Source: a bacterium (lineage in GTDB: Bacteria; Patescibacteriota; Patescibacteriia; UBA9934). Taken from it: a DNA stretch of 33,159 bases. Below, one piece after another: positions 4,192 to 30,637 of the stretch; the first letter of the stretch is position 1; every line of letters begins with the position of its first letter. The stretch is taken from the NCBI GenBank assembly GCA_020053275.1, contig JAGVNL010000037.1:1-33159 (forward strand), given 5' to 3'. The notes under the pieces are model-generated. The model saw only the letters and a program-made list of their open reading frames with translations. It had not been told where the DNA came from and ran no database searches. The translations under genes were made by a program, and so were the position numbers.

Positions 4192-4482
4192 ATGAATTAT
4201 ACATATAGAGTCATTATTGAACCAGATGAGAAGAATTGGTTGGCTTCTGCCCCAGCTCTGCCGGGTTGTCATACTTATGGTAAGACAATTGAAGATGCTC
4301 AGAAGAACATCGGAGAGGCTATAGAGGCCTATATTTATACTTTATTGGAGGCTGGTATGCCAGTACCAGGAGATAATTCTTTGCAAGTATTGAAGACAGT
4401 AAATTTACCAGAATCAAGAAAAAACACACGGCAAGTTATTACTAGAAAAGCTGTTAAGCAGTTGGCACATGCCTATGTCTAG
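4192..4482 (+). CDS. hicB: HicB-family antitoxin
   Basis: About 96 residues from ATG 4192. The HicB partial RNase H fold is clear: 'YRVIIEPDEKNWLASAPALPGCHTYGKTIEDAQKNIGEAIEAYI', with the 'LPGCxTxGxTxEEAxxNxxEAI' signature. A short basic C-terminal segment (RKNTRQVITRKAVKQLAHAYV) may be the HicA- or DNA-contacting tail. HicB neutralises the HicA mRNA interferase and usually autorepresses its operon. The hicA reading frame begins inside its last codons (ATG 4475). The antitoxin is intact while hicA has a premature stop, so HicB may persist without an active partner. An in-frame ATG/GTG-type start at 4177 is possible, but 4192 fits the family start better. Confidence 0.88.
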   Translation: MNYTYRVIIEPDEKNWLASAPALPGCHTYGKTIEDAQKNIGEAIEAYIYTLLEAGMPVPGDNSLQVLKTVNLPESRKNTRQVITRKAVKQLAHAYV

Positions 4483-4696
4483 GCCACCAGTCATGACAGC
4501 TAAAAAGTTTGTAAAAGTTTTGTTAGCTTTGGGTTTTGTACGATGCCATTAGACTGGTAGTCATATCATCTTTAAGAATCCTGACGGACGAATTACTACC
4601 GTTTCAATGCACACTGGAGATATGGCAATTGGTACGGTATGCAGGATTTTGAAGGATATTGAACTGGGTGAAGAAGAATTGCGAAAAATGTTGTAA
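4475..4696 (+). pseudogene. hicA: HicA-family toxin with in-frame TAG
   Basis: The frame from ATG 4475 to TAA 4694-4696 encodes a 73-codon HicA: 'TAKKFVKVLLALGFVRCH', stop, 'TGSHIIFKNPDGRITTVSMHTGDMAIGTVCRILKDI'. The TAG at 4550-4552 replaces the residue before the TGSH motif, which in many HicA proteins is Gln (CAG to TAG is one transition). The dsRBD-like fold and catalytic His of 'GSH' lie after the stop, so the toxin is probably inactive unless the stop is read through or is a sequencing artefact. The gene overlaps hicB by eight bases. Confidence 0.85.
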
Positions 4697-4701
4697 ACAA
4701 C

Positions 4702-4729
4702 AAACCCGGCTGCGAGAACAGTCGGGTTT
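4702..4729. terminator. Convergent terminator between hicA and the structured operon
   Basis: AAACCCGGCTG-CGAGAA-CAGTCGGGTTT forms an 11-bp stem with one G-T mismatch. It is followed by T-rich sequence on both strands (TTTATTTCT on plus, GTTTGTTGTTT on minus). It can serve hicA on plus and the long minus-strand transcript. Confidence 0.7.
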
Positions 4730-4813
4730 ATTTCTGTGACAAAAATTGTAGACAGAGGAGAGAGTCAACTGACTACTCTTCTAACCACAGGAGTTTTGAG
4801 CTTTTAGGCTCGC

Positions 4814-4888
4814 GACTCTCGAACGGCGTAATCGGGGATTACGAAGTTGGAGAGTCCCCTGAAGTAGATGTAGTGCATCACTTCAGGG
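4814..4888 (-). ncRNA. Two-hairpin RNA motif M, copy 1
   Basis: Read on minus, a 9-bp hairpin (ACTTCAGGG paired with CCCTGAAGT in plus coordinates 4857-4888) is followed by GACTCTC (4850-4856) pairing with GAGAGTC (4814-4820). That stem encloses an internal loop CAACTT/CCGTTC and an inner 7-bp stem CGTAATC-CCC-GATTACG. It lies directly downstream of ORF A. Copies 2 (7280-7354) and 3 (7994-8061) share the architecture with different inner stems. Confidence 0.7.
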
Positions 4889-4904: not shown

Positions 4905-5129
4905 TCAGGAGTTGACCTGAGAGGTGCGGGACGGCAGTGGGCATTGTGGGCAGTAGCGATATGCCCACAAAGGGTCGCCCCAGGAATCCGGGACGAAGAC
5001 TGTCTCTGCGCCGCAGGTGGCACAGTTCTTCACTTCAATCCCGCCGGCTGGGCAGGATTGAGCTGCGAGAAGGGCGGTGAGTGCCTTCTCGAGGGGGGTG
5101 GTGACCCCTTTCTTTGTTTTGGTAGCCAT
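4905..5129 (-). CDS. ORF A: small zinc-ribbon-like protein
   Basis: A 74-residue protein starting at ATG 5129 behind a strong Shine-Dalgarno (AGGAGGTGGCTC-ATG). The N-terminus is basic (MATKTKKGV). The C-terminal half has two CxxC knuckles, 'NCATCGAE' and 'YCPQCP', spaced about 25 residues apart, which suggests a zinc ribbon that could bind nucleic acid. I do not recognise the family. It is last in the minus-strand structured-RNA operon, preceded by the L1 leader (5130-5306) and followed by motif M and a terminator. Its TGA stop lies in the TCAGG/CCTGA stem of a small hairpin. A 9-bp hairpin (TTGTGGGCA/TGCCCACAA) and others lie inside the coding region. Confidence 0.6.
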   Translation of the reverse strand: MATKTKKGVTTPLEKALTALLAAQSCPAGGIEVKNCATCGAETVFVPDSWGDPLWAYRYCPQCPLPSRTSQVNS

Positions 5130-5306
5130 GAGCCACCTCCTGCCTTGCGGCAAAGACGGGAACGGAACGAGTGAAGTCACAGCGGAGAATCCGCGTTGAT
5201 CTAGCACTGTGTTCAGCTCCTCGATTGACGACTCGATTCCTCGGATATGAAATCAAGTAGTCGATAGAGGAGAGCTCGGCGACGCGTGCAGCGGCGAGCT
5301 CCCAGG
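5130..5306 (-). promoter_or_regulatory. Structured leader L1 of ORF A
   Basis: About 177 bases conserved with the leader of ORF B (5629-5806). In transcript order the visible elements are GAGCTC arms, and a hairpin with CGAC/GTCG plus TTGATT/AATCGA (plus 5229-5263). Then come a constant block (GTCGTCAATCGAGGAGCTGA), a GCGGA/TCCGC hairpin, and TGCC-GCAA-GGCA (5141-5152), a GNRA tetraloop hairpin abutting the AGGAGG Shine-Dalgarno. This suggests a cis-acting translational control RNA. Confidence 0.65.
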
Positions 5307-5370
5307 TTGGTGTTGGGTTTGCGACCCTGTGACGGAGTGACTACCGTCGCGACGCACCAATGCGCCGTTG
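5307..5370 (-). ncRNA. Three-way-junction RNA motif T, copy 1
   Basis: An outer stem TTGGTG/CACCAA encloses two arms: GACGG/CCGTC with a variable loop, and GGGT-CGCAA-ACCC. The preceding word AACGGCGC is shared by all copies. It sits between ORF B and the leader of ORF A. Confidence 0.65.
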
Positions 5371-5424
5371 GCCCTGAGCTACTTGAGGAAGTTGCTCAGA
5401 GCCTCTTGGTGCGACGGGACCGGA
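5371..5424 (-). other. Spacer with relic of an ORF E-type 3' end
   Basis: After the ORF B stop, the minus strand reads a sequence that in another frame encodes ALSNFLK followed by TAG, the same C-terminus as ORF E, within a CTGAGC/GCTCAG hairpin. It suggests that ORF B has shifted frame or that 3' ends were exchanged between cassettes. Confidence 0.5.
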
Positions 5425-5628
5425 CTACCAGCGTGAGTCGGCCGACATGGCCGACTCGAGCTCGCGGAGCTGCTGCTCCGCGAGCTGACGATCATGGCAG
5501 ACTGCCATGATCGTCAGCTCCACACAGGTTCCGTCCGGATTGGACGGAACCCGGGTCTGCTCGCCTGGGGCGAGCAGACCCATCCACGGGCGGCCATAAC
5601 CGTCCGCTGTTTTGATGATGACAAACAT
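5425..5628 (-). CDS. ORF B: small unknown protein encoded by a hairpin chain
   Basis: A 67-residue protein from ATG 5628, with AGGAGGTGACAA-ATG as ribosome-binding site. No domain is recognised. It starts MFVIIKTADGYGRPWMG and ends in an acidic helix (LAEQQLRELESAMSADSRW). The coding region is made of five adjacent perfect hairpins (5435-5581) with stems of 9, 12, 18, 10 and 13 bp, which is far more structure than a normal gene. The segment LTIMAVCHDRQL is encoded by the 18-bp stem. Just after the TAG stop, a shifted frame encodes the ALSNFLK tail of ORF E, so the present C-terminus may result from a frameshift. A strong Shine-Dalgarno after a conserved leader supports translation, but the RNA may be as important as the protein. 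Confidence 0.5.
   Translation of the reverse strand: MFVIIKTADGYGRPWMGLLAPGEQTRVPSNPDGTCVELTIMAVCHDRQLAEQQLRELESAMSADSRW
5435..5581. repeat. Array of five adjacent perfect hairpins
   Basis: Stems are 5435-5443/5449-5457 (9 bp), 5459-5470/5475-5486 (12 bp, loop TGCT), 5482-5499/5503-5520 (18 bp, loop GAC), 5527-5536/5542-5551 (10 bp) and 5553-5565/5569-5581 (13 bp, loop TGG). Stems two and three share an arm (GAGCT) and so could switch. All lie inside ORF B. Confidence 0.9.
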
Positions 5629-5806
5629 TTGTCACCTCCTGCCTTGCGGCAAAGACGGGAACGAAACAGGTGTAGTCGCCGCGGGGAATCCGCGTTGACC
5701 AGACCGTGTTCAGCTCCTCGATTGACGACTCGAACAGACTCAATCAAGAGGTTCAAGTGGTCGATAGAGGAGAGCTCGGCGACGCGTGCAGCGGCGAGCT
5801 CTCAGG
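5629..5806 (-). promoter_or_regulatory. Structured leader L1 of ORF B
   Basis: Second copy of the L1 leader. The CGAC/GTCG stem continues as TTGAAC/GTTCGA (plus 5730-5735 with 5751-5756), where the ORF A leader has TTGATT/AATCGA: two base pairs have changed with pairing kept. The GCGG/CCGC hairpin, the TGCC-GCAA-GGCA tetraloop hairpin (5640-5651) and AGGAGG are conserved. Confidence 0.65.
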
Positions 5807-5866
5807 TTGGTGTTGGGTTTGCGACCCTTCGACGGGGTGACCGTCACGACGCGACCAAGGCGCCGC
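5807..5866 (-). ncRNA. Three-way-junction RNA motif T, copy 2
   Basis: TTGGT/ACCAA (5807-5811, 5854-5858) encloses GACGG/CCGTC and GGGT-CGCAA-ACCC arms, with the GGCGCC word next to it. It lies between ORF C and the leader of ORF B. Confidence 0.65.
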
Positions 5867-5870
5867 TGTT

Positions 5871-5978
5871 GGGCTAATGGTGATAATCACCATTAGCCCA
5901 CTTGCGGAGCTCGACGAGCTGCTGCTCGTCGAGCTCCGCCTATTCCGCGATCTCGAGGAGGAGTTTTTCAAACTCCTC
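5871..5978. repeat. Array of three strong hairpins inside ORF C
   Basis: Stems are 5871-5884/5886-5899 (near-perfect 29-base palindrome), 5904-5919/5924-5939 (16 bp, loop TGCT, the same loop as in the 5459-5486 hairpin) and 5958-5966/5970-5978 (9 bp). The final TAG of ORF C is in the first stem. Confidence 0.9.
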
Positions 5979-6005: not shown

Positions 6006-6224
6006 GGTAAGGGTGTGGCCAGAGTGGCCGTGAGGGCGATATGCCCGAGATTCACAGCGTCGAAGAACTTCGAGGCTGTGAAAGTCGGCCCTCACATGAT
6101 GTGCAATCATGGAGAGCCTTCTTTGACCTGTGCTCGCTAACGTTCCCCGGTCATTGGGTGGCCTACGACGAGTGGTTTCTCGTAGGTGAAAAGTAGAGTT
6201 TGTCCGCTCTACCGGCGGGTCGCC
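6006..6224 (-). ncRNA. Structured spacer between ORF D and ORF C
   Basis: No gene. The transcript can form a nested hairpin: GTGAGGGC/GCCCTCAC outside, TTCACAGC/GCTGTGAA inside it, and TCGAAG-TT-CTTCGA at the tip. Next to it are GGCCA-CTC-TGGCC, ATGAT/ATCAT, CCTACGA/TCGTAGG and GTAGAG/CTCTAC stems. Confidence 0.55.
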
Positions 6225-7184
6225 CTAGCTGTTGAGCAGGGCGCGGATGGCGACGAGGGCGGCGGCCTCGTCCTGGAGGTCAACGTTGGCCTTCTGGGCG
6301 AACCCGGAAGCCTGGACACCGGTGGCCTTGATGGCCGCGAGGATGTCCAGCTTCTCGCTGGTACCGAAGGCGACCATTAGTATTTTTTTTTTGAGGGCGG
6401 GAACGAACATGTCCCCTTCGCTGATGACGACCCGAGCCCCGGCCTTGTACAGCCGGTTCATGAGGGTGGTCACGTCGACCTTGCGGCCGACGGTGTTCAC
6501 CCGGATGATGCCGTTGCCGAGGTCCTGCGCCGCGGCGACGATGATGTCGTGGTCGGCGAGGATGAGGTCGTACTCCGCCATCCAACCGAGGATGACCGAG
6601 TCGGCCTCGGTCGACCCGGCGAAGTGCCGGGCCAGGTAGACCCGTCGGGCATCGTTTCCGATGTCCGACTTCACCGCCTGGTTCACCATCCCACCGAAGT
6701 GGGAGGAGAAGTCCATCCGATCACCGGCGTCGGCGGCCTGGCAGAGCTCCTGGCCGTGGCCGTCGAGCATGACGTAGCCGACCATCGAGGACTGGAGCAC
6801 TGCACCGGAGGACTTGTATTTGCCCTCCGACTGCGACTGGGGCTGGATCATCAGCTCGCCAAAGTCACCGAGGATGGTCTCCCAATCCTCGCGGCTGTGC
6901 TCGTCGATGACTGCCACCACCTGGTGGCCGGCCTCCTTGATGCGGGCGATGAAGCCCGCTGTCGTCATGGCCTGGTCGCGGTTGTTCACCGCGAGATCGA
7001 CCAACGCCACCTTGGCGCCGGCGGGGAACTTGCTGCAGTCGACCTTGTCCACGGCGAAGGCCTGCGTAAAACACAGGCCGACGTCATCCCGCCCGATGAG
7101 GCGGAGGAGGGCGGAGGAGGTGAGGACACCGTCCACGCTGCCGACTGAAACGATCTGGGTGATGTCTTTGATGGAAGGGGTCAT
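6225..7184 (-). CDS. ORF D: DHH-like phosphoesterase family protein, degenerate motifs
   Basis: About 319 residues from ATG 7184, preceded by GGAGATCAA. The N-terminal half has the layout of DHH/DHHA1 proteins: 'VSVGSVDGVLTSSALLRLIG' resembles motif I (HxDxDGxxS), 'VALVDLAVNN' resembles the second Asp motif, and 'VVAVIDEHSREDW' stands where DHH is expected. Several metal ligands differ (no leading His, DEH instead of DHH), so catalysis is uncertain. A second domain has 'ILADHDIIVAAAQDLGNGIIRVNT' and 'VAFGTSEKLDILAAI'. Related proteins cleave phosphodiester bonds in nanoRNA, cyclic dinucleotides or ssDNA, so an RNA role would suit the context, but this is inference. It is the only long gene in the operon and is not built of hairpins. 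Its TAG stop lies in a GCCCT/AGGGC stem. Confidence 0.5.
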   Translation of the reverse strand: MTPSIKDITQIVSVGSVDGVLTSSALLRLIGRDDVGLCFTQAFAVDKVDCSKFPAGAKVALVDLAVNNRDQAMTTAGFIARIKEAGHQVVAVIDEHSREDWETILGDFGELMIQPQSQSEGKYKSSGAVLQSSMVGYVMLDGHGQELCQAADAGDRMDFSSHFGGMVNQAVKSDIGNDARRVYLARHFAGSTEADSVILGWMAEYDLILADHDIIVAAAQDLGNGIIRVNTVGRKVDVTTLMNRLYKAGARVVISEGDMFVPALKKKILMVAFGTSEKLDILAAIKATGVQASGFAQKANVDLQDEAAALVAIRALLNS

Positions 7185-7279
7185 TTGATCTCCAGAGACG
7201 AGTGCGTTGGGTCGATGTGGTGTCACTTGGCCGGCAGAATTGACGGTCGAAGTGTCTTACAAGAACTTAATAGCAAGTC

Positions 7280-7354
7280 GCTCTCGAAAGCCACGAGCTA
7301 AGCTCATGAATTTTGAGAGTCCCCGCAACCAGCTGTGTGCCAGAAGGTTGCGGG
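7280..7354 (-). ncRNA. Two-hairpin RNA motif M, copy 2
   Basis: Hairpin CCCGCAACC/GGTTGCGGG (7322-7330, 7346-7354) is followed in the transcript by CTCTC/GAGAG (7315-7319, 7281-7285). The inner stem is CATGAGC-TTA-GCTCGTG on minus. One inner pair is U-G only when the minus strand is the RNA. It sits upstream of ORF D. Confidence 0.7.
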
Positions 7355-7359
7355 ACGGT

Positions 7360-7420
7360 TTGGTGTTTGGGCTTGCGACCCTTTGACGGTGGACCGTCAC
7401 GACGCGACCAAGGCGCCGTT
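7360..7420 (-). ncRNA. Three-way-junction RNA motif T, copy 3
   Basis: TTGGT/ACCAA (7360-7364, 7407-7411) encloses TGACGG/CCGTCA and GGGT-CGCAA-GCCC arms, with AACGGCGCC at its start. It directly follows the end of ORF E. Confidence 0.65.
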
Positions 7421-7586
7421 GGCTCTGAGCTACTTTAGGAAGTTGCTCAGAGCCCTGTTACCATCATCCGGGGGGTGAAAGCCCCCCGGATCGACGGAAC
7501 AGCGGCCGGCATCGAAGCCGGCGATGAAGGCGGCCTTGATGGCCGCCTTCAGGAGCTCCACCGCCTCGTCTTCCGACGAGGCGGTG
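7421..7586. repeat. Array of perfect hairpins inside ORF E
   Basis: Stems are 7421-7430/7445-7454 (10 bp, spanning the stop codon), 7466-7475/7482-7491 (10 bp), 7505-7510/7517-7522 (6 bp), 7526-7535/7541-7550 (10 bp) and 7559-7570/7575-7586 (12 bp, loop TTCC). They tile the 3' three quarters of ORF E. Confidence 0.9.
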
Positions 7587-7645
7587 CCGGCCACCAGGAT
7601 GAACCTGATGGCCGATTCGGCTTTTGTCAATGAATTGTCTGCCAT
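7430..7645 (-). CDS. ORF E: small helical protein encoded by a hairpin chain
   Basis: A 71-residue protein from ATG 7645 with AGGAGGTGAATC-ATG. The N-terminal two thirds look like a compact helical unit (SLTKAESAIRFILVAG, then SSEDEAVELLKAAIKAAFIAGFDAGR). A Gly/Pro-rich stretch (VDPGGFHPPDDGN) follows, and the tail is ALSNFLK. No family is recognised; similar 'EEAVELLKAAIKAGF' helices occur in small phage and plasmid proteins. It is the first ORF of the operon, about 1.1 kb after the promoter. Its coding region is tiled by perfect hairpins, and the TAG stop lies in the GGCTCTGAGC/GCTCAGAGCC stem. The same ALSNFLK-TAG coding sequence recurs out of frame behind ORF B. Confidence 0.6.
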   Translation of the reverse strand: MADNSLTKAESAIRFILVAGTASSEDEAVELLKAAIKAAFIAGFDAGRCSVDPGGFHPPDDGNRALSNFLK

Positions 7646-8745
7646 GATTCACCTCCTGCTGAGAAACCCCATGGTAAGGGTGGTTCCAAAATGGTCCCTC
7701 TGAAGCCTCGTCGATGATAGACAAGAATTTGGAGGGAATCGGGAAACTTGGTGGTGCACACCAGAGGTTTCCCGGGAGATATCGAGTTAGCGCTCGATGC
7801 GCAGAGTCAGTCAGTGACTCCGTGCTGCCCCGTCCAGCTCGAGGGTGTAGGCTGGAAAGTGATCAAATTGCCATTTATTTAGCGCCAGCAATCGGCGCGT
7901 GAACCTTCTCGATGTGATTTCTCGTTGGGCAGATATATTTGCCCGGTGATGATCTCTACCAGAGGTTGGTTATGAGCGAGGCAGAAACTGCGTCGCTCTC
8001 GAACACCACCAGTGAGTGATGAAGTTTGAGAGCGTCCCGTCCACACGAGGGAAGACGGGACACGAAGTTCGTTGTTCGTAACATGAAGTATAATTTCCAC
8101 GGGTTCCTAATGGGTGGGTTTGGTGATTGACGAGTCGGCACAGAGTGTCGTCGTCAGCCAAGTGTCCACCGCCGGAAGGGCGCAGATACTTCTGTGTGTT
8201 AACTCTTCAGTTGTGAAGGTTCAGTTCCTTTGCCACGGTGGCTAAGCCTTGCGGCTGTTGGTAAGGACTGCAGGAGGTTCAAAACTGTTTTGAACTCCCG
8301 CGCACTCATTACCACGGTTATTTTCTCTGTAGTAACCGGGGGAAGGCTGGGGTGTTGGCCGAACGAATTCAGTTGCCACTTGCCAGGTTCCGACGATCCG
8401 GCGAGGCCGGATGGAGAACATAGGCTGCTATCGAGGAAAAGTCTCTCTCACCCAGGTTGGGGGATTGGTCGCGAGGGACCAGCTTTTGCTCAATTTCAGC
8501 TATGTGAGGGCCTTTTGTTCTCTAGCCTTGCGGCGAGAAGCAAAAAGGCAGGATTCAGTCTATCTAGTGTGGTTGCCCACGGAGAGAGATTGAATCCTGC
8601 CTTGGCAAGCCTTTTGGCTTGTCATAGTGGTACGAAGTAGAGCCGAGCTCACTTCATACCTGTGCCCCGTTTTTACCGGCACCCGTACTCTCTCTTAAGT
8701 TGTAAGGAGCTTGCTGATTGAGTTTCTCGTCTCATCAGCTTGTAA
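7646..8745 (-). ncRNA. Long structured untranslated leader (about 1.1 kb)
   Basis: No ORF here has a credible Shine-Dalgarno or composition. Many stems are visible: AGGCAGGATTCA/TGAATCCTGCCT (8546-8557, 8591-8602, 12 bp), GGCAAGCC-TTTT-GGCTTGTC (8604-8623), GTTCAAAA-CTG-TTTTGAAC (8277-8295), ATCCGGC-GAG-GCCGGAT (about 8395-8412), GGGCA/TGCCC (about 7927-7945) and GAGTCA-GTCAG-TGACTC (about 7805-7822). Motif M copy 3 also lies here. The strong promoter at 8750-8778 points into it. It could be a large ncRNA or a very long 5' UTR. Confidence 0.55.
7994..8061 (-). ncRNA. Two-hairpin RNA motif M, copy 3
   Basis: Hairpin GTCCCGTC/GACGGGAC (8034-8041, 8054-8061) is followed by CGCTCTC/GAGAGCG (8028-8034, 7994-8000). 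The inner stem on minus is CATCAC-TCACTG-GTGGTG, containing one U-G pair specific to the minus transcript. Confidence 0.7.
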
Positions 8746-8749
8746 ACAC

Positions 8750-8778
8750 ATCATACCATTTTCTCAGACTTCTGTCAA
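8750..8778 (-). promoter_or_regulatory. Sigma70-type promoter of the structured operon
   Basis: On minus, TTGACA (8773-8778), a 17-base spacer, then TATGAT (8750-8755). The -35 box is perfect and the -10 box is near consensus. Transcription should start near 8741-8744 and run through ORFs E to A. Confidence 0.8.
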
Positions 8779-8843
8779 CTGCTATGTGGCATAGATGTTG
8801 AAATGAGGCTAAGATTAGCTTAAAACTTATCCACACCCCGCCA

Positions 8844-8872
8844 TTTACATTATGACAATATGCTGTGATAAT
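8844..8872 (+). promoter_or_regulatory. Probable promoter of the TrmB-like regulator
   Basis: TTTACA (8844-8849), 17 bases, GATAAT (8867-8872), 41 bases before the ATG. It is divergent from the operon promoter in the same spacer. The nearest AGGAG lies about 28 bases before the ATG, too far for a normal Shine-Dalgarno. Confidence 0.5.
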
Positions 8873-8913
8873 TGAGCCATAGGAGTTAATTTAGGCTTTA
8901 AGCTCGGCTTAAT

Positions 8914-9666
8914 ATGTATCAGGAAATCCTCAAAAAACTCGGGTTAAACGCGAATGAGGCCCATATTTATGAGCTATTGCTGACTAAAGGCCGGACAAAG
9001 GCTCGGGATTTGCTGACTGATAGCGGCCTAGGGCGGGGTAATCTCTATAATGTATTGACTAGCTTGGTATCCCAGGGCTTAGCGACGGTAGCTGAAGGGA
9101 AGCAGCAGATTTATGAAGCGGCGGAGCCATCGCATCTGGCTATCCTCGTCGACGACCAGAAACGCCGGGCTGATCGCTTGGCGCAAGAGTTTCAGGGGGA
9201 GTTGCCCAAGTTGCTTTCCACATTTAACTTAACTACGGGAAAGCCAGCGATTCAGGTGTTTGAGGGGATTGAGGGGGTGGAAATAGCATTAATGGAGTCG
9301 TTGAGTGCTAAAAGTAGCATTTACACATATTTGGATCCTAGTGCTTTTAGCGAAGATGTGGCAAAATTAAATGCTCGATATATTGCGTTGCGACAACGAA
9401 AAGGAATTACTAAACGAATTATATTGCCAGATAACGAAGGTTCACGACAATATGTAGCGAATGCCACAAAAGAGTTAACTGAATATTTGTTAATTCCCGG
9501 TCTGCCAGCAATGCCTGAAATTGCCGTTGAAATGTACGGCGACACAGTTACTTATTTGAATCTGCGCGGCGGTAAGACTATCTCTGTTATTGTACGGGAC
9601 ATTTCTATTGCAAGTATGCACTTAGCTCAATTTGAGTTTTTGTGGAAGACATTTAAGGTTTCCTAA
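8914..9666 (+). CDS. TrmB-family transcriptional regulator
   Basis: 250 residues. The N-terminal winged helix is typical of TrmB: 'LGLNANEAHIYELLLTKGRTKARDLLTDSGLGRGNLYNVLTSLVSQGLATV'. A coiled linker (residues about 75-105, DDQKRRADRLAQEFQGELPKLL) and a C-terminal sensor-like domain follow, containing 'IQVFEGIEGVEIALMESLSA', 'IYTYLDPSAF', 'RIILPDNEG' and 'KTISVIVRDISIASMHLAQFEFLW'. TrmB proteins are mostly sugar-responsive in archaea and are frequent in Patescibacteria. The target here is unknown; neighbours are the structured operon (divergent) and the transketolase/GNAT pair (convergent, overlapping at 9653-9666). The start is ATG 8914, since the helix begins at residue 2. Confidence 0.8.
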   Translation: MYQEILKKLGLNANEAHIYELLLTKGRTKARDLLTDSGLGRGNLYNVLTSLVSQGLATVAEGKQQIYEAAEPSHLAILVDDQKRRADRLAQEFQGELPKLLSTFNLTTGKPAIQVFEGIEGVEIALMESLSAKSSIYTYLDPSAFSEDVAKLNARYIALRQRKGITKRIILPDNEGSRQYVANATKELTEYLLIPGLPAMPEIAVEMYGDTVTYLNLRGGKTISVIVRDISIASMHLAQFEFLWKTFKVS

Positions 9667-12099: not shown

Positions 12100-13095
12100 C
12101 TACTTCTTAACTTTACGCTTAATAACTTTCTGTACCGCTTTGGCAATCCAGGGCGCAGTGAGGTGGTAGTGTTCCAGGAGTTTGCGGGGGGTGCCGGATT
12201 GGCCGAAGTCGTCTTGCAGGCCGATGCGCTCAATAGGGACGGGGTGAATGGCGGAGAGGAGTTCGCAAATGGCGCTACCAAGGCCGCCGGCTGCTTGGGC
12301 TTCTTCTACGGTAACGATGGCGCCGCAGTCCTTGGCCGCGGCGATGATGGTAGCTTCGTCGAGGGGCTTGATGCTGGGGCAGTTGATAACGCGGGCGTCA
12401 ATGCCTAGTTTTTCGAGTTCGCGGGCGGCGAGTAAGGCTTCGTGAACGAGGATACCGCAGGCGATGATGGCAACACTGGTACCTTTGCGGAAGACTTGAG
12501 TTTTGCCGATTTCGAATGGTGTGGCTTCGGTAGTGAAGACAGGGCTTTCGCTGCGGGCAAAGCGGATGTAAACGGGGCCGATCATTTTGGCGGCGGCGAT
12601 GGTGGCTTTGCGTGTTTCAATAGCATCGCAGGGGACAAGCACGGTCATGTTGGGGAGAACGCGCATGAGGGCGATGTCCTCCGTCATTTGGTGCGTGGCG
12701 CCGTCGGGGCCGACGGAAACACCGGCATGGGCGCCCATTATTTTGACATTGGTTTTAGGGAGGCAGATAGTGGTACGGATTTGTTCCCAGTTGCGACCAG
12801 GGGAAAAACAGGCGTAGCTGGCGATGAAGGGGATTTTGCCGGCGAGTGCGAGGCCGGCTGCGATGGCGGCGAGAGATTGCTCGGAGACGCCCATTTGGAT
12901 GAAGTGATCGGGGAAGGCTTGCTTAAAGCCCAAGACGCGAGTTGACTCGGTTAAGTCCGCGCAGAGGGCGACGATGCGCTTGTCTTCTTGGCCGGCAATA
13001 ACTAAACCTTCGCCAAAGCCGTGGCGCGTTGGTTTTTGCTCGACATCTTTAGCAAAAAGTTTGCGTGATAATCGCATGAGCGAATTGATAGCCAT
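12100..13095 (-). CDS. Transketolase C-terminal subunit (pyrimidine-binding plus C-terminal domains)
   Basis: About 331 residues, the length of the C-terminal half of split transketolases. Visible features are 'FGEGLVIAGQEDKRIVALCADLTEST', 'FIQMGVSEQSLAAIAAGLALAGKIPFIASYACF' with the TPP-contacting Glu of the pyrimidine domain, 'GAHAGVSVGPDGATHQMTEDIALMRVLPNMTVLVP', then the C-terminal domain 'GTSVAIIACGILVHEALLAARELEKLGIDARVINCPSIKPLD'. It needs the N-terminal (pyrophosphate-binding) subunit, which is not in this window. The chosen start is ATG 13095 (MAINSLMRLSRKLF); the frame is open to an ATG at 13125, next to repeat R1b. It provides pentose-phosphate carbon shuffling in the cytosol. It is first in an operon with the GNAT-like protein. 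Confidence 0.9.
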   Translation of the reverse strand: MAINSLMRLSRKLFAKDVEQKPTRHGFGEGLVIAGQEDKRIVALCADLTESTRVLGFKQAFPDHFIQMGVSEQSLAAIAAGLALAGKIPFIASYACFSPGRNWEQIRTTICLPKTNVKIMGAHAGVSVGPDGATHQMTEDIALMRVLPNMTVLVPCDAIETRKATIAAAKMIGPVYIRFARSESPVFTTEATPFEIGKTQVFRKGTSVAIIACGILVHEALLAARELEKLGIDARVINCPSIKPLDEATIIAAAKDCGAIVTVEEAQAAGGLGSAICELLSAIHPVPIERIGLQDDFGQSGTPRKLLEHYHLTAPWIAKAVQKVIKRKVKK

Positions 13096-13126
13096 AGTTG
13101 ATAGTATTCTATCATAAAATGACATC

Positions 13127-13181
13127 GCTCGCCACGTCGGTCGCGACCGACGTGGCTCGCTCTTACAAGGCTCAGGCTCGT
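13127..13181. repeat. REP-like palindromic repeat R1, copy b
   Basis: The same 26-base palindrome as copy a (13131-13156) and the same right flank ending in GGCTCAGGCTCGT. It lies in the divergent spacer between the transketolase and the 13226 gene. Confidence 0.85.
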
Positions 13182-13192
13182 AGTGAGTTTTG

Positions 13193-13201
13193 TGTTATAC
13201 T
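13193..13201 (+). promoter_or_regulatory. Extended -10 promoter for the 13226 gene
   Basis: TGT-TATACT (13193-13201), an extended -10 element 25 bases before ATG 13226, with a weak GAAGTG ribosome site in between. Confidence 0.5.
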
Positions 13202-13225
13202 GAAGAAAATTATTGAAGTGAAAAT

Positions 13226-13789
13226 ATGTCTCATTTGGTAAATAGCGAAGTGCCGTTGGTGGCGGCAGAGTATGTGTCACTAGTTTTGCCGGAAGTTGAT
13301 TTACAAAATGTTGAGTCAATTAAAGAGTTTAAGCAGAATGTTGTTTTGCAGGCGCAGGGTGATCCAGTTATTATTGAGGAAAGTTTATTTACGCTAGTTA
13401 AGGCGGCGTTAGCGTTTGGTGCGATTGCGGATGTAGCTACGCAAGTATTAGTGAGGACATCGGATGGTAAGACTGCAATGATTTTTGATCATGAGACACG
13501 AGAATTTTTGCCAGGTATTGAGATTGATATGACGGTATGGGAGGAGACATCAGCGAGTCGAGAGAGTCTGCAACCAGTTAGTGCTGTCGCGTTGCCGATG
13601 CCAGAGATTACTGTGGATTTGTGGGAGGAAGGTGCTTTGGTTGAAAAATTAAAACCGTGTATAACATTGCATCTTATTGGCGAGGTGCCGGTGTTAAGGC
13701 TACTGTCAGCTATTTATTTGGCCAGGCCGATGTGTCGAATGATGGATTATACAAATGCGGTAGGAGAAACGATAAGCCTTTTTGAGTAA
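13226..13789 (+). CDS. Unknown 187-residue protein
   Basis: No family recognised. The sequence alternates short beta strands and one hydrophobic helix (SLFTLVKAALAFGAIADVATQVLV), followed by 'RTSDGKTAMIFDHETREFLPGIEIDM', an acidic linker and a C-terminal strand/helix (KPCITLHLIGEVPVLRLLSAIYLA). There is no signal peptide. It sits five bases before the HrpA-like helicase gene and shares its promoter, so it may work with it. Codon use (many GTT, TTG and GAG codons) matches the helicase gene. Confidence 0.6.
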   Translation: MSHLVNSEVPLVAAEYVSLVLPEVDLQNVESIKEFKQNVVLQAQGDPVIIEESLFTLVKAALAFGAIADVATQVLVRTSDGKTAMIFDHETREFLPGIEIDMTVWEETSASRESLQPVSAVALPMPEITVDLWEEGALVEKLKPCITLHLIGEVPVLRLLSAIYLARPMCRMMDYTNAVGETISLFE

Positions 13790-13793
13790 TTTT

Positions 13794-16700
13794 ATGGCAA
13801 ATAAGTATCAACAACGATCGCAGGGTGGTGAGGGAGGAGGCTATGGCAGAAATGAACCAGTGCCAGATCCTAAACGGACAGCTCCGAAGGTTGATTTGCT
13901 AGCTTTGCCGATGGATAGCGCTCGAAAAGAAGTTGAAAACTGTTTAGCTAATCATGATAATGCCATTATTATGGCGGAAACTGGTTCTGGTAAAACAACC
14001 AGAACGCCAATTATTTTATTGGAGGCTAATCCTGATGCCAGGATAGCTGTTACGCAACCGCGGAGAGTAGCGGCGATTTCTGTGGCGGATTATGTGGCTG
14101 AATGTCAGGGTGAGAGAGTCGGAGGAAAGATTGGCTCGCAGGTGCGTTTTGATAACGAGACAAGTAAGGAGACACGCGTTATTTTCATGACTGATGGTAT
14201 TTTGTTAGCAAAATTAAAGGCGGATCCGTTGTTGTGAGATTTAGATATTGTCATGGTGGATGAAGCTCATGAGAGGTCGTTGAACATTGACTTTGTCATG
14301 GGTTTGTTGAAGCAGGCTCAAATAGAACGACGACAAGCTGGTTTAGCAAAGTTAAAAATTGTTATAACTTCTGCTACTATTGATAAGGAAAAATTTGCTA
14401 AGTATTTTGGTGAAGCGCCAGTTATTGAGGTACCAGGGCGAAAATTTCCGGTAGAAGTCAGGTATGAAAGAGAGGATGTTGATGATTATGCAAAAGCGGC
14501 TGCAGAAAGGGTAAAACAGATAGTTAATAGCGGTGAGCAGGGTGATGTTTTGATTTTCATGCCCGGTGAGCAGGAGATCAAAGTGACCATGAAAGCGATT
14601 GATGACATGAATCTTTCTGGGATTGAGGTGATGCCGCTTTATGGCGCCATGAAGCCAGAAGATCAAAAAAAGGTATTTTTAAAAAATCCTCGACGAAAGG
14701 TGATAGTGGCTACTAATATTGCAGAAACTTCAATTACCATTGATGGTGTAAGACATGTCATTGATTCAGGTTTGATTAAACAAAAACAATTTAATAAGAA
14801 TACTGGCATTGAGGCGTTGAAGACTATTCGTCATGCACAAGGCGGTTGTGATCAACGCAAAGGACGAGCTGGACGAACGGCGCCTGGGACTTGTTATCGT
14901 TTGTACACCGAAGAGGAGTTTAATGGATTAGCTAAAGATCAGACGCCAGAGATTACACGGTCTAATATTGATCATGTGGTTTTAGCGATGACAAAGATGG
15001 GAATAGCTGATATTCGCGATTTTGATTTTATTGATAGGCCAACGACTGGTGATTACGAGATGGCTTTTAAGTCGTTAAAATTGTTGGGGGCTTTGGATGA
15101 GGAAGAGAAGCTAACACCGATGGGTGAAAAAATGTCGGAATTGCCGTTGAGTCCGGAATTAGCACGAATGGTATTGGAAGCTCAGAAATATGGTTGCACG
15201 GAGAGCGTGACTACGATTGCTGCTATGTTCGGACAATCTGTCTTTATTGGTGGCAGGCCTGACGCACCAGATGCGTTAAAACGAGAAGCGGCACAGGCAG
15301 CGTTTAAGAAATCAGGATCGGACTTTTTAGCAATGCTTGAAGTGTGGAAGCAATTTGCTAAGAGTGGTTGCCGGGAACGCTGGCAGTGTGAAAAGTGGGC
15401 ACGAGAACGCTTTCTTAATGGTAAGGTGTTATTTGAGGTACAAGATATTAGGGCACAATTATTACGGGAGTTAAAACAGCAGGGAATAGCCGGAGTTGAT
15501 AATAATGCGACAGACGAAAATATTCAGAAATCAGTGGCGGCTGGTTTAATTCAGAACTTGATGGTTCCAGCCGGACGGTACGGATACAAGAAGGTGTCAG
15601 ATAATGGTCATGCTGTAGAAATCATGATTCACCCAGGTTCGGCTGCTTTTTCTAGAAGGTCTGAGATGATGATTGGAGCCGATGTTATGACGACGAGTAA
15701 AACTTTTGCCCGTAAGTGTCAGACTGTGAATCCAGAATGGCTCCCAGAAATTGCTCCGCAGCTGTTGAGTGAGTTACAGCGGACAAGCGTATATGATCCA
15801 CAGCTGGATAGGGTTGAGGTTAGTGTTGATTATGGATTTAAGGGGTCGTATAGACACCTAGTATCTCGAAAAGAGGTAGTAACGGATGAAAACATAATTA
15901 AAAATGAGTTTGCCAAGGCGCTGGCCGAGGGAAGAGTCGATTTGCCGTGTGTTAAGCATAATGCGGAGGTGTTAGAAGCGCTCAATAAGTTGCAAGCTAG
16001 GTCTGGTGGTTTGGTTGAGGTGCCGAAGTTGGCGGATTATTACAATGAACGGTTGGGTGGAGCCAAGAGTCGGGCAGAAGCGATTTATATTGATGAACAT
16101 CTCAGGCTAAAATTAGGTGATTATTGTGGCGAGGAGATGATGGATAAGTTGGAGCGCGAAATGCCTGATAAAGTGTCAGTTAAAGGGCGGGAGTTGGCGG
16201 TTGTTTATGGTTTTCAACAAGCACAACCTGATGCTTATTACGAAAGTGAGAGAATAGAAAAGTACACGGCCACGATTGATGTGCCGGCTGACATGCTGTT
16301 TACGCTGCAACTAGCGGATATTCCTGCGATTGGGCAGAATGGTCGACCGAGTATTATTTATAGTTGCAGCGATGGATATAATCCAATGAATAATGCTGAT
16401 CTTGAAGCATTAAAGGCGGATTTTGATAGAAGGCGCTTGAATAGTATATGGTCGATGGAGTTTAGGAAGCCAGAGTCTGTGAAAGTTGTGGTAGGACGGT
16501 TGGAAGGGTTGCCATCTTTGGAATCCTTGGGTAGCAAGCCAATTCCCTATGCTAAGGATTATAAGTCTGATGATGTGCTAGCGTATCCAGGGTTCGTTGT
16601 GGAGCAGCGGTATGATTACCAAATCAGTGATTATGTTTTTAGTTATAGGGTAGATTATTGGCAAACTAAGCCAGAAGCAGATGAGTCGAGCGTTATAGCT

Positions 16701-18329
16701 AAGCAAAACAGATTGGAAGAAATAGCTAAGGAGCAGAGAAAGGTTGAACGAGAGACACTGTTAGCGCCAGTTAAGGCTCGTTTTGAGTCAATGCGTGGTG
16801 TTATGAGTACATTCGGTAACGATCAGGCCTTGTATGGCTTGTCTAATGACGAGTTTAGTCGTTTATATAATGGCTGGTATGCGGTTGAGAGTAATTTGAG
16901 AGGGAATGATGCCGATCCAAAGGCAGCAATAGCGATGATGGATGATATAGAGCAAACAACGAAGGTTGGTAGAGCTGAGGCTGAGCGAAAGAGAGAGTTG
17001 TTAGGTGAGGTGAAGAGTGAGATGACGGCCATGTCGGCGAGGATGGGTAAGCTGACTGAGCGAACATATAAGTATTATGGTTTGAGAGATGAGCAATATC
17101 ACGCAATTCAAGAAAAATGGAACAAGGCTAATGCGGCAATTACTCCATTGCGGTATAGTTATGCTCAGCCTGATCCGGATCTGGCGAGACGACTAATGCG
17201 TGAGGTAGAGTCGATGGTGCCGACTGAATTGGGGGAGATGTCGCCTGAACAGGAACACCTGATGGATCTGTTGTTTGGGCCGAGTGATTATGTGCAGATG
17301 GTGCAGGTACGAGGTGGGAAGATTACTAGTGTTGGGGTACCATCTGAGCTGAATAATATGCGGGCAGTTGGGAAGACTATGGCTAAGCGAGGCGGGGGTG
17401 AGGATTATTTGGTGCAAGGTGGCAATTTGGTTAGTTTGTATACTGGAGGTAGTAGCGGCAGACAGTATAAGCTGACAGATGGTGATTGGATTTTTGAGGA
17501 TGGCGGTAATACGGCGATTAAGGTCGAAGCGGCACCAGATACACTGGGTGGTTATAAGGCTCTGCAGTTGGTTTATTCTGAACACTATCAAGGGAATCCG
17601 TATATTGATCCTAGAAAGAATGCGAATAGTGGTCGAGTAGCAACTGGTGCATCGAGTTATATGTCGGCAGGTGATAGCGGTGGGTTTGGCGGAAATAATC
17701 CTTTTGCTGGAGCCTTGAAGGCTGTGAAGGGTAAACCATTACCAGCAGAGCTTGAGAAGCCTCAATCGCCTCGTTTGGAGTTGCCAGAAAAGCTTGTTGA
17801 GGCTGCAGTACCAGTTCCAGATGTAAAATCAGCGGTTGTTGAGTTGCTACGCATACCTGTTGAAAAACAACCCATGACGGAATATACACGAGGTATATTA
17901 GAGATGGAATTACGAGGTGCTAAAATGATTCTTGATGATGTGCGAGCAGTTCCTGAACCGACGGATGTAAAGATGACGAATGCGGCCAAGATTTCTAAGG
18001 CTCGCCAGACTGCAGCAGAACGAAAAGCTGATTTAAATAAGTTAAGCCGAGAGTTGCAAGACATGGAGGATGGCGACAAGGCGGATGGTTTAGTGCGTGC
18101 CATGAGGCAGAGTGCTGAGAAGGTTGCTAAGGACATGGCATTTTTGCGGAATGAAGCGCAAACCTGGCCAAAGCAGTTTGAGATGTTGTTGGTTCGTCTG
18201 ACTGAAATTGCCGACACTTATGGAGAAACTATTACCGATGAACATCTGAAGAAGCTCATTCTATTAGCGAAACGCAAGGGAAGTGTTGATGATATTTCTG
18301 ATTCTGATCTGGAGGCGATATTTAGTTAG
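13794..18329 (+). pseudogene. hrpA: HrpA-like DEAH-box RNA helicase, interrupted by one TGA
   Basis: About 1,511 codons from ATG 13794 with a single in-frame TGA at 14235-14237 (codon 148). Before it are the P-loop 'AETGSGKTT' (residues 61-69), 'TQPRRVAAISVA' and 'DNETSKETRVIFMTDGILL'. After it come 'VDEAHERS' (DEAH at 156-159), 'TSATID', 'LIFMPGEQEI', 'ATNIAETSITIDGVRHVIDSG' and 'QRKGRAGRT'. HA2 and OB-fold regions follow, then a long C-terminal extension. The helicase core is complete apart from the TGA, which stands where HrpA relatives have Arg in 'LLRDLD'; CGA to TGA is one transition. It could be a nonsense mutation, a sequencing error or a readthrough site. HrpA proteins rescue stalled or collided ribosomes and remodel RNA. 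Residues beyond about 950 are mostly helical, Glu/Lys-rich and unknown to me. The TAG stop overlaps the NUDIX gene end. Confidence 0.85.
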
Positions 18330-19524: not shown

Positions 19525-19610
19525 CAGAACGCGAGACTCGGGGAGTCACTTCTTTTCTCTCTCGGGTGTTTTGACGCTCGCCGATTGATTATTGGGGTGA
19601 ATCGACGGCC
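19525..19610. repeat. Intergenic mosaic repeat R2, copy b
   Basis: It shares the exact 25-base block with copy a (19531-19555) and the following imperfect hairpin (GCCGATT/AATCGACGGC). It lies next to R1 copy c, so the thymidine kinase to GT spacer is a composite of two repeats. Confidence 0.6.
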
Positions 19611-19676
19611 TTCAAAACACGCGTCCCTCGGTTGACAGAAGTGACATCCCGCTCGTCTTCGTTCTGCTTATGTGCC

Positions 19677-19740
19677 AGACACGACAGTCGCTCGCCACGT
19701 CGGTCGCGACCGACGTGGCTCGCTCCTACAGGGTTCAGGT
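19677..19740. repeat. REP-like palindromic repeat R1, copy c
   Basis: The 26-base palindrome is at 19694-19719. On minus it is preceded by CCCTGTAGGAGCGAGC, the clearest REP-like foot of the three copies. Confidence 0.85.
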
Positions 19741-19796
19741 CCCGTAAGATTTGTACACAGCTTAGCATACTTCTGCACACAATTTGTCCACAGGCA

Positions 19797-19805
19797 TGAT
19801 ATAAT
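19797..19805 (+). promoter_or_regulatory. Extended -10 promoter of the GT4/DUF4012 operon
   Basis: TGA-TATAAT (19797-19805) is a perfect extended -10. The ATG is at 19812, so the transcript would start at or within a base or two of it. This predicts a leaderless mRNA. Confidence 0.6.
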
Positions 19806-19811
19806 GTGTGC

Positions 19812-20945
19812 ATGAGGATTGGAATTGATGCAAGATTTTACGGAACACGATCAGGCGGTGGCGGAATTGGCCGCTATGTCGCTGAGTTAATTACGCATTT
19901 ACAGCGCGTGGATAAGCTCAATTCGTATGTAATTTTCTTGCGGAAGGCTAATTTTCATGAGTGCGTTATTACGAACCACAATTTTAGTAAGCGGCTAGTG
20001 GATGTGCAATGGTACACACTAGCAGAGCAGATTGTTATGCGTCGTGAGGTGGCTGCCGCTCGGGTTAGCCTGATGCATTATCCGCATTGGAATATTCCGG
20101 TGTTCTCGCGAGTGCCGTTTGTGGTGACAATTCATGACCTCATTTTACTTGAGGATGCGTCTTCGGCGCATGCCACTACGCGTAATCCCTTCATTCATGG
20201 GATTAAGCAGATTGGTCACAGGATTGCGCTCGAACGAGCAATTCACGGGAGTCGTCAGATAATTACGGTGTCGGAGTTTACGAAGCGGTCAATCCTGAAA
20301 CATTTTAAGGTTAAGCCGCAGAAGATAAGCGTTATTCATAATGGGGTAACGGTGGCGTTAGATGGTAGCAGAGTCAGCTTACGAGATTTGGGGGTATACG
20401 AACCGTATTTTCTTTATGTCGGCAACGCTTATCCTCATAAGAATTTACCGTTCATGTTGGCTGCTTTTGCCAAGCTGCAGAAGCTACACCCGTCATTGCA
20501 GCTGGTACTGGCCGGCAAACGCGATAGCTTTTCCAAGCAGTTGGAGGTGTATGGGAAAGAACTTGGAATACCTGGAAGTGCAATACGGTTTGTTGATTTA
20601 CCATCAGATACTGAGGTTGCAGCGTTATATAGTCATGCCACTTTGTTCATTTATCCGTCACGAATTGAAGGGTTTGGCATCCCACCAGTTGAAGCGTTGA
20701 GTTATGGAACACCAGTTGCAGCAACGCAGGCGGCTTCTATGCCTGAGATTCTGGGAGACGATGTGCGGTACTTTGAACCAGATGATGAGGCTGAATTGAT
20801 TAGGATAATGACGGCGGCGGTAGACGGTAGGGCAGTGACAGACTTAATGCGGCAGCGAGGTAAGCGACGGGCTGAGAGTTACAACTGGGACACCACGGCC
20901 AAGCAAACATTAGAAATATATGCGGCAGCCAAAAAACTTTATTAA
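19812..20945 (+). CDS. GT4-family glycosyltransferase
   Basis: About 377 residues. The N-terminal GT-B domain begins 'MRIGIDARFYGTRSGGGGIGRYVAELI', with the glycine-rich acceptor loop. 'FVVTIHDLILLE' and 'QIITVSEFTKRSILKHF' are typical GT4 elements, and the donor domain has 'YFLYVGNAYPHKNLPFML' and 'LFIYPSRIEGFGIPPVEALSYGTPVAATQ' (the EGFGxPxxE motif that binds the NDP-sugar). It transfers a sugar from a nucleotide donor with retention, probably for cell-surface glycans. It overlaps the DUF4012 start by 26 bases and is probably translated without a leader. Confidence 0.9.
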   Translation: MRIGIDARFYGTRSGGGGIGRYVAELITHLQRVDKLNSYVIFLRKANFHECVITNHNFSKRLVDVQWYTLAEQIVMRREVAAARVSLMHYPHWNIPVFSRVPFVVTIHDLILLEDASSAHATTRNPFIHGIKQIGHRIALERAIHGSRQIITVSEFTKRSILKHFKVKPQKISVIHNGVTVALDGSRVSLRDLGVYEPYFLYVGNAYPHKNLPFMLAAFAKLQKLHPSLQLVLAGKRDSFSKQLEVYGKELGIPGSAIRFVDLPSDTEVAALYSHATLFIYPSRIEGFGIPPVEALSYGTPVAATQAASMPEILGDDVRYFEPDDEAELIRIMTAAVDGRAVTDLMRQRGKRRAESYNWDTTAKQTLEIYAAAKKLY

Positions 20946-26227: not shown

Positions 26228-27351
26228 TTTTTGAGTGCGGAGAGGGTGAGGGCGGCGGTTTTGTCCCAGGAGTAGAGGCGAGCACGGAGGAGACCGCGAG
26301 TGCGGAGTGAATTTTGGAGTTGTGGTGAGGCGAGGAGTTGAGTGAGGGCTGATGAAAGATCGGTTATATTGAAGGGGTCAACCGTGAGGGCGGCGTCGCC
26401 AACTAATTCTGGAAGTGAACTGGTGAAACTCGTAATGACTGGCGTGCCGCAAGCCATGGCCTCGAGTACGGGGAGGCCGAAACCTTCGTAAAATGAGGGG
26501 AAGAGGAAGGCTTTAGCGCCACGGTAGAGCGCTGGTTTATGTTTTTCATGGATGTAACTGAGGAAGATGATGTCTTGCGAGAATGGTGAGGATTTAGTAG
26601 CGGCAACAATGGACTGGTATTTCCAGCCTTGACCACCACCAATAGCCAGCTGCAGGCGTGTTTTAGAGGTAGCGCGAACGGTGTTGAAGGCGGCAATTAT
26701 GCTTTCGATATTTTTGCGTGGTTCCTGGGTACCGAGCGACAGAATGTAAGGACAGTTTAGGCCATAACCTCGTTGATAGTTTTTGTCGCTGGGGGCGATT
26801 TGCGGGGTGAATTGTGAGCCAACACCAAGTGGCGAGACGACGATTTTGTACTCGTTGGTTGATAGGAGGTTGATGAGATCCTGTTTGGTGCTCTGCGAAA
26901 CGGCGAGGATCGTTGTGGCATTTTTTGTTAGTTTTTTGACGCCGGCAACGCGGTTGCGAAGGCGGTCCTTGGCTGTAAAAAATTGAGGAAAGATATTATG
27001 TGACAAATCGTGGACGGTGAGGGCGTATGGTAGTTTGGTGCGGATTATGTTGGTATCCGGGAACAGCCAGCAGTCGACGGGGAATGGCAGAAATGATTCG
27101 AGGGTTGGTCCGAAAGGTAATTTTAGCAAGGCGAATAGCAGGCGATTGGGGATTTGTTTTTTTACGAGGGTGATGTTTGGGGCGGTGATTATTGGCAAAC
27201 GGCTGAGGGTGGCGTGGCTGCCGCTGGCAAAGAGTACGAATTTGGTTTCTGGTGAAAGCCTGGCGAGGGCACGAATAAGATTGACGGTGTAAAGGCCGAC
27301 GCCGGAGAGCTGGAGGTGTGTTAGGTGGCGGATGTCGATGGCTACCTTCAT
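26215..27351 (-). CDS. GT4-family glycosyltransferase
   Basis: About 378 residues from ATG 27351 (MKVAIDIRHLTHLQLSGVGLYTVNLIRAL). The frame is open 66 bases upstream into repeat R3, but those residues have no family match. GT-B features are 'YALTVHDLSHNIFPQFF', 'ATTILAVSQSTKQDLINLL', 'YILSLGTQEPRKNIESIIAAF', and the donor motif 'AFLFPSFYEGFGLPVLEAMACGTPVITS'. It resembles mannosyltransferases of O-antigen-like pathways, but the donor is not deducible. It is third in the minus-strand glycan run after the sugar transferase and another GT4. Its C-terminal codons and TGA stop come from the right RAYT palindrome, so the element may have altered its end. Confidence 0.9.
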   Translation of the reverse strand: MKVAIDIRHLTHLQLSGVGLYTVNLIRALARLSPETKFVLFASGSHATLSRLPIITAPNITLVKKQIPNRLLFALLKLPFGPTLESFLPFPVDCWLFPDTNIIRTKLPYALTVHDLSHNIFPQFFTAKDRLRNRVAGVKKLTKNATTILAVSQSTKQDLINLLSTNEYKIVVSPLGVGSQFTPQIAPSDKNYQRGYGLNCPYILSLGTQEPRKNIESIIAAFNTVRATSKTRLQLAIGGGQGWKYQSIVAATKSSPFSQDIIFLSYIHEKHKPALYRGAKAFLFPSFYEGFGLPVLEAMACGTPVITSFTSSLPELVGDAALTVDPFNITDLSSALTQLLASPQLQNSLRTRGLLRARLYSWDKTAALTLSALKNCIS

Positions 27352-27394
27352 ATTGATTGTGTAATAGGGGCCAAGGCTCGTGGTGCAGAAGTTC

Positions 27395-27476
27395 GTCGGG
27401 TCCTGCCGCTTGGCCACCCTCCTCGGTGCTCACTGCGTTGCGCACCGCGCAGGGGACCTGGCTCGCGTCACCCGAC
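27395..27476. repeat. 82-base structured repeat R3, copy a
   Basis: The unit is bounded by GTCGGGT/ACCCGAC. Internal stems read on minus are CAGG-TCC-CCTG, CTGCG/CGCAG, CACC-GAGGAG-GGTG and GCC-AAGC-GGC. Copy b at 30556-30637 has GTTGGGT/ACCCAAC, a compensated change in the closing stem. It lies between two GT genes, 43 bases upstream of ATG 27351. Confidence 0.75.
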
Positions 27477-30073: not shown

Positions 30074-30140
30074 AATGAGTAAAGTGTAACACAAAACCGT
30101 CCTTTTGGGACGGCCTCATGAGAAAGGATTAACTGGTGTT

Positions 30141-30476: not shown

Positions 30477-30555
30477 ACCGTCTAGCTACCCTGAACGAGG
30501 GAAATGTAGCAGATTTTAGCGATAATGTAAAGGTCGGAGCTGCTAAATGACGATA

Positions 30556-30637
30556 GTTGGGTCCTGCCGCTTGGCCACCCTCCTCGGTGCTCACTGCGCT
30601 CTGCGCCGCGCAGGGGACCTGCCCCGCGTCACCCAAC
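30556..30637. repeat. 82-base structured repeat R3, copy b
   Basis: About 90 percent identical to copy a. The closing stem is GTTGGGT/ACCCAAC (extendable to TAGTTGGGT/ACCCAACTA), with compensated change against copy a. It lies upstream of the rnpB 5' end. Confidence 0.75.

Follow-up and report, generated by a model that had tools for sequence, protein, structure and literature searches.

What does one RNA leader do in front of two unrelated genes? The question arises in a window of 33,159 nucleotides (the whole stretch of DNA that was analysed) from an ultrasmall bacterium, a member of Candidatus Uhrbacteria (Patescibacteria). Between about 4.7 and 8.8 kb the window holds an island that is GC-rich, above the level of its host, and low in GC skew. 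Inside it, on the minus strand, lie two small reading frames, ORF A and ORF B, whose leaders a preliminary description had taken for copies of one another.

4905–5129, minus strand: ORF A, 74 amino acids, CxxC zinc-ribbon-like (Zn_ribbon_NUD, E 0.015, below the cut-off; synonymous-shuffle z −2.8)
5130–5400, minus strand: leader A, the spacer between ORF B and ORF A (85–94% identity to leader B; fold z −4.7)
5425–5628, minus strand: ORF B, 67 amino acids, successive near-perfect palindromes (synonymous-shuffle z −5.4)
5629–5880, minus strand: leader B, the spacer before ORF B, a copy of leader A (fold z −3.8)

The leaders are indeed copies. They share 85% identity over 173 nt, with ungapped blocks of 89 nt (94%) and 73 nt (86%), and each is the other's sole match in the 786-kb genome searched. 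The bounds first proposed, 5130–5306 and 5629–5806, do enclose copies but stop short: similarity continues upstream into the remaining spacer, to about 5370 in A and 5870 in B, and takes in a three-stem TTGGT..ACCAA unit. Leader A is composed of this multi-stem unit, a GAGCTCG hairpin, a covarying stem and a hairpin at the Shine-Dalgarno sequence. Each leader folds better than all 200 of its 200 dinucleotide shuffles. The encoded proteins are unrelated to one another, as had been supposed, and neither has a relative among the proteins of the other islands compared. Such islands occur in three other species of the genus (that of G002 is split over several contigs); one species, G004, gave no match.

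Is it the structure of the leader that is conserved? To answer this we turn to its stems and to a second stem type found elsewhere in the island.

5217–5270, minus strand: covarying stem of leader A (model R3, 63.8 bits)
5714–5770, minus strand: covarying stem of leader B (model R3, 81.3 bits)
5136–5152, minus strand: TGCC-GCAA-GGCA hairpin and GGAGG of ORF A
5635–5651, minus strand: the same hairpin and GGAGG before ORF B, an exact copy of 5136–5152
7276–7323, minus strand: second stem module, copy 1 (model R2, 61.4 bits; covariation of 22 copies)
7991–8036, minus strand: second stem module, copy 2 (model R2, 52.2 bits)
4811–4858, minus strand: second stem module, copy 3 (model R2, 56.9 bits)

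In leader A the central stem is TTGATT/AATCGA; in leader B it is TTGAAC/GTTCGA. Two pairs have changed and the pairing is kept, just as first reported; a T–G (U·G) wobble stands at the same place in both. The preliminary description had staked its case on conservation of the stems in homologs and had proposed a covariance-model search. That search, with R3, finds both leaders. Among 11 copies from five genomes, 8 of the 18 pairs are changed on both sides, giving 14 double-change cells against 3.1 for shuffled partners, a figure that 0 of 500 shuffles reach. The 22 copies of the R2 stem give 45 such cells (16.4 expected). Within the genus, matches to R2 and R3 are confined to island contigs.

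At the Shine-Dalgarno sequence stands the hairpin TGCC-GCAA-GGCA with its GGAGG, TGCCGCAAGGCAGGAGG, of which the window has exactly two copies where 0.02 would be expected. Relatives carry TGTC-GCAA-GACA and TGTC-GAAA-GACA, so that both the pairing and the GNRA loop are retained. Both leaders had been described as ending in this hairpin followed by AGGAGG. Both do end in it, but the initial A of AGGAGG is the final base of the GGCA arm, and the hairpin therefore abuts GGAGG directly. Such an arrangement is not universal among the island genes: a hairpin of at least 5 bp lies beside the Shine-Dalgarno sequence in 13 of 41, compared with 11% in shuffles, related copies not being independent.

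Does the leader belong to the gene that it precedes? Grouping the 150 nt before each start yielded nine multi-gene leader families, seven of which stand before genes from two or more unrelated protein families. Two species carry the A/B leader, on three genes that each belong to a different, unrelated protein family; in G001 a 96% identical leader stands before another gene. Conversely, the same gene may have different leaders in different species. One instance among others is the following gene, whose leader differs between G000 and G002.

6225–7187, minus strand: DHH-superfamily phosphoesterase-like protein, 320 amino acids (low-confidence fold, pLDDT 67; orthologues in G002 and G043)

About nine leader types are exchanged among unrelated genes, and one of these is represented by the copies A and B. 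The original suggestion of a shared regulatory RNA survives in part, since a conserved, covarying structure common to unrelated genes does lie directly upstream of their starts. The part that finds no support is a switch or protein site dedicated to these two frames, leader families spanning unrelated genes as they do. Were A and B classical gene-specific cis-regulators, a riboswitch or an autoregulatory protein site acting on the translation of the two frames, the covarying stems and the hairpin at the Shine-Dalgarno sequence would be readily explained. However, the leader follows no one gene, which speaks against a gene-specific switch, whether one considers the one leader on unrelated genes or the one gene, such as the DHH-like gene, with different leaders; the structure moreover continues past the start codon, and it has no Rfam match. 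Set against the riboswitch and cis-regulator class, the leaders have the covarying secondary structure and are tied to no single gene family or pathway. We consider gene-specific control very unlikely. A translation-related role of some kind is plausible, with moderate support from the open start codons (see below) and the hairpin by the Shine-Dalgarno sequence. In the distant genome G207 a long spacer is repeated almost unchanged on either side of a VWA gene (L085, 6690–6860 and 8420–8580), which suggests reusable spacer modules in another order too.

Is this structure limited to the spacers? Every island spacer carries a cluster of stable hairpins, yet the folding energy lies below that of shuffles along the whole molecule, coding regions included, and the related islands behave likewise. 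The sliding-window folding z runs from −2.2 to −5.7 over 4.5–8.1 kb, compared with −1.7 to +0.9 in nearly all the rest of the window; the exceptions, at about −2, are the 8.1–9.0 kb bin and 18.9–19.8 kb. When synonymous codons were shuffled, protein and codon usage being kept, the mean z was −4.40 for 41 island ORFs and −0.18 for 20 ordinary ORFs of the window (p 7e-9). The island coding regions contain 57 perfect hairpins of at least nine Watson–Crick pairs, where 0.6 would be expected. ORF B includes one perfect palindrome with a 19-bp arm pair (5482–5520), and the C-terminus of ORF A runs into the next hairpin module. The island ORFs nevertheless behave as protein genes across species, third positions varying most. 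The stretch from the start codon to +29 is more open than in shuffles (0.48–0.58 versus 0.40–0.43), and most flanking positions are more closed. The finding is much larger than the leader pair first reported: hairpins abound along the entire operon, of which the leaders form a small part.

Does this structure act as RNA or as DNA? The spacer modules, read on the sense strand, have G–U in 41 cases and A–C mismatches in 19. Among changed pairs in coding orthologues the counts are 142 and 137, with no strand preference; coding hairpins are not enriched in G–U pairs on the sense strand, and both strands fold equally well. The exact coding hairpins are weakly conserved among orthologues, double changes pairing in 49% of cases compared with 38% for slid partners. 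The open starts and the G–U excess of the spacer modules favour RNA. On the other hand, the lack of G–U preference in coding pairs and the likeness of the two strands make a DNA-level cause a live rival: the palindromes would act or arise as DNA, either as single-stranded hairpins or cruciforms serving cassette-like recombination or through a local bias in template switching, and RNA structure would be a by-product. Gene content that varies by species and leaders that reassort like cassettes fit such a cause. It fits less well with start codons that remain open, with the preference of module stems for G–U over A–C on the sense strand, with an order of promoter and leader kept in 12 genomes, or with the distribution of tyrosine recombinases, of which the island contigs of the genus have none and G001, G002 and G003 just one each. 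We regard a DNA-level cause as unlikely.

How, then, is the island expressed? Its boundaries and its 5′ region are marked by the following.

8914–9666, plus strand: divergent TrmB-family regulator (Pfam TrmB, E 1.5e-15)
8750–8778, minus strand: promoter TTGACA-17-TATGAT (11/12; extended −10, TG ahead), the sole minus-strand prediction in 4.4–9.0 kb
8545–8603, minus strand: long hairpin, its loop containing CUCUCUC and its tail U-rich, between GAGAGA boxes at about 8690 and 8445 (layout shared by all 12 leaders)
8255–8317, minus strand: conserved 5′-leader element (model R1), GGUAAuGAGUGC..GCAGUCcUUACC (13 genomes of the class, 12 compared)
4702–4729, strand not assigned: terminal hairpin separating the operon from hicA (called terminator-like for the plus strand)

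The whole looks like a single operon, with one strong promoter, a structured 5′ leader of about 1.1 kb, small genes and one terminal hairpin; we infer a single transcript. Within the island, a prediction scan of the minus strand found no terminator with a U tail. Might the spacers instead be processing or termination elements, whose hairpin clusters end or cut the transcript so that each gene has its own RNA? Stable clusters do occupy every spacer, and it has been proposed that clusters of hairpins can act as terminators even when they lack U tails (PMC8355165). But hairpins are dense inside the genes too, and no internal promoter is predicted, so that termination would silence the genes downstream. 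This explanation we think quite unlikely.

The roughly 1.1 kb from the promoter to the first gene is non-coding and conserved. Of the 73 genomes of the order, 11 match the R1 covariance model, as do two from another order. All 12 leaders compared, including two from that other order, keep the same layout: a GAGAGA box, a hairpin of 10–20 bp with a U-rich tail, a second GAGAGA box and R1, the last lying 204–271 nt after the hairpin. In most of the 12, CUCUC stands in or at the hairpin loop. In the window (8442–8694, minus strand), pairing of the CUCUC loop with the GAGAGA boxes, or attenuation, is possible. Several of the R1-leader loci show strong folding again further downstream. At the gathering cut-off Rfam recognizes only RNase P in the window (bacterial class A RNA, 30137–30493, minus strand, 165.6 bits) and nothing in the 12 related loci; at E values up to 1 the island gives chance-level matches only. 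No tRNA-like or known RNA was found in the island or in the related loci, and the openly accessible literature yielded nothing relevant on structured RNAs in Uhrbacteria or Patescibacteria.

What do the genes of the operon encode? Most island proteins have no known family. The 320-aa protein has no Pfam, PADLOC or PDB match by sequence; its model is fold-matched best by GdpP, PggH and NrnA, and fold comparison alone suggests a DHH phosphoesterase-like protein. A further protein belongs to a small family that recurs through the islands.

7430–7645, minus strand: 71-aa member of this small helical family (synonymous-shuffle z −5.4)

Operons of relatives contain Csx3 with a SAVED-TM protein (G006), MYG1 (G007), a weak STIV-B116-like match (G003), Csx3 with a DEAH helicase (G133) and bpMoxR with VWA (G207). 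These family names suggest accessory, conflict-related functions. In L084 a DEAH helicase (6084–9635) lies downstream of an R1 leader; in the window itself an HrpA-like DEAH helicase gene (13782–18329, plus strand) has an in-frame stop shortly before its DEAH motif.

Several islands have HicA, HicB or PIN genes within or beside them, encoded on the opposite strand. Toxin-type genes of the HicAB or PIN kind are found inside or at the ends of islands in L017 (1332–1821), L019 (6298–6775) and L057 (4421–4777), and inspection alone places a HicB-like ORF in or at a hairpin island of L087 (854–1308). The HicA frame of the window (4478–4697, plus strand) is interrupted by an in-frame TAG immediately ahead of TGSH, and the HicB frame just upstream of it is intact. 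The toxin looks broken in the window; an unbroken HicA occupies the matching place in G001. Elsewhere in the window, mechanical ORFs at 2663–2983, 13002–13319, 19589–19813; 26996–27445 and 30325–30636 have peptide strings in common (VGRDRRG; AVSTEEGGQAAGP), a sign that some DNA repeat is dispersed outside the island.

Could the island be a remnant, or the packaged cargo, of a virus or other mobile element, its folding serving packaging? A compact chain of structured small genes, a GC content above that of the host and a patchy spread (R1 in 11 of 73 genomes of the order) would be in keeping with such an origin. The genomic site, however, is stable in the genus. A TrmB gene adjoins the islands of G001, G003, G006, G007 and, by inspection, G043, those of G001 and G003, and of G006 and G007 in another genus, being orthologous. 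No match appears in phage or plasmid records and none that is convincing to viral protein families, and pattern searches of viral contigs were empty or gave chance matches inside phage tail genes. We hold an origin of this kind to be highly improbable. Two viral-contig matches to the R1 string were set aside, as they lie inside phage tail genes with normal folding; a genome-wide string search returned three related islands and one chance match, in L023.

We propose, with a probability of roughly 0.45, that leaders A and B serve as generic RNA modules, maintaining the fold of a polycistronic, hairpin-armoured mRNA and leaving its start codons open. They would be two copies of a gene-independent module in one minus-strand transcript running from near 8750 to about 4.7 kb. 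The statistics show selection on this transcript to fold as a continuous chain of short stable hairpins, in coding regions as much as in spacers, and show too that the region of the start codon is kept open. The spacers are built from a few covarying stem modules, which are swapped between genes, probably by recombination or gene conversion. The A/B module would hold its spacer folded and insulate the neighbouring genes, and its GNRA-capped hairpin against GGAGG would put the Shine-Dalgarno sequence at the edge of a helix. The entire mRNA would be armoured against single-strand ribonucleases, allowing a conflict-related operon to be expressed while RNases, for example the neighbouring HicA or PIN toxins, are at work. 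Entry into the operon is probably controlled by the 5′ leader, with its GA-box/CU-loop hairpin and R1.

Does this amount to a new unit of bacterial gene expression, a whole-mRNA hairpin chain whose spacer RNAs are interchangeable and whose 5′ control RNA is conserved, through which accessory or conflict genes could be expressed while ribonucleases destroy ordinary mRNAs? We put this forward tentatively and with some doubt. If true, it would be a new way of organizing bacterial gene expression, with a control RNA in at least 12 genomes and freely swapping leaders. It would also offer a handle on gene regulation in the Patescibacteria, a largely unexplored subject, and makes testable predictions about mRNA stability, translation initiation beside hairpins and control by TrmB.

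How does the island compare with known systems? Strong selection for RNA structure inside coding sequence is known mainly from RNA viruses. The genome-scale ordered RNA structure (GORS) of those viruses resembles the island in its excess folding along the entire molecule, coding regions included, beyond what composition and protein sequence dictate; the island differs in being a bacterial chromosomal operon, confined to about 4–10 kb, with repeated modular spacers. The large structured noncoding RNAs of bacteria, of the GOLLD, ROOL, OLE and raiA types, are, like its 5′ leader, long, conserved and complex, each several hundred bases in length and found in one gene context. Unlike them, the island leader has no gathering-level Rfam match and precedes an operon of several genes, next to a TrmB regulator.

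Tandem guide-RNA (TIGR) arrays were set aside, the modules appearing to be hairpins in the spacers that separate genes, unlike guide units in tandem. Rickettsia palindromic elements are palindromes inside reading frames, as here, but they are dispersed, whereas those of the island are confined to one locus. Dispersed palindromic repeats in general (REP, MITE and Rickettsia palindromic elements) were rejected, R2 and R3 in the genus being restricted to island contigs and not scattered over the genome. Integron cassette arrays, with their attC sites, are likewise one-directional arrays of small genes with structured repeats between them and a changing gene order. The island has no integrase nearby, and it has a leader promoter, covarying RNA stems and hairpins inside its genes; matches to PF00589 lie on other contigs or, in G007, G133 and G207, tens of kilobases away. 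For want of an integrase, an integron-type array is unlikely. Finally, translational leaders and riboswitches have the same covarying structure abutting the Shine-Dalgarno sequence. The island leaders differ from these in that they are tied to no gene or pathway and are swapped among unrelated genes.
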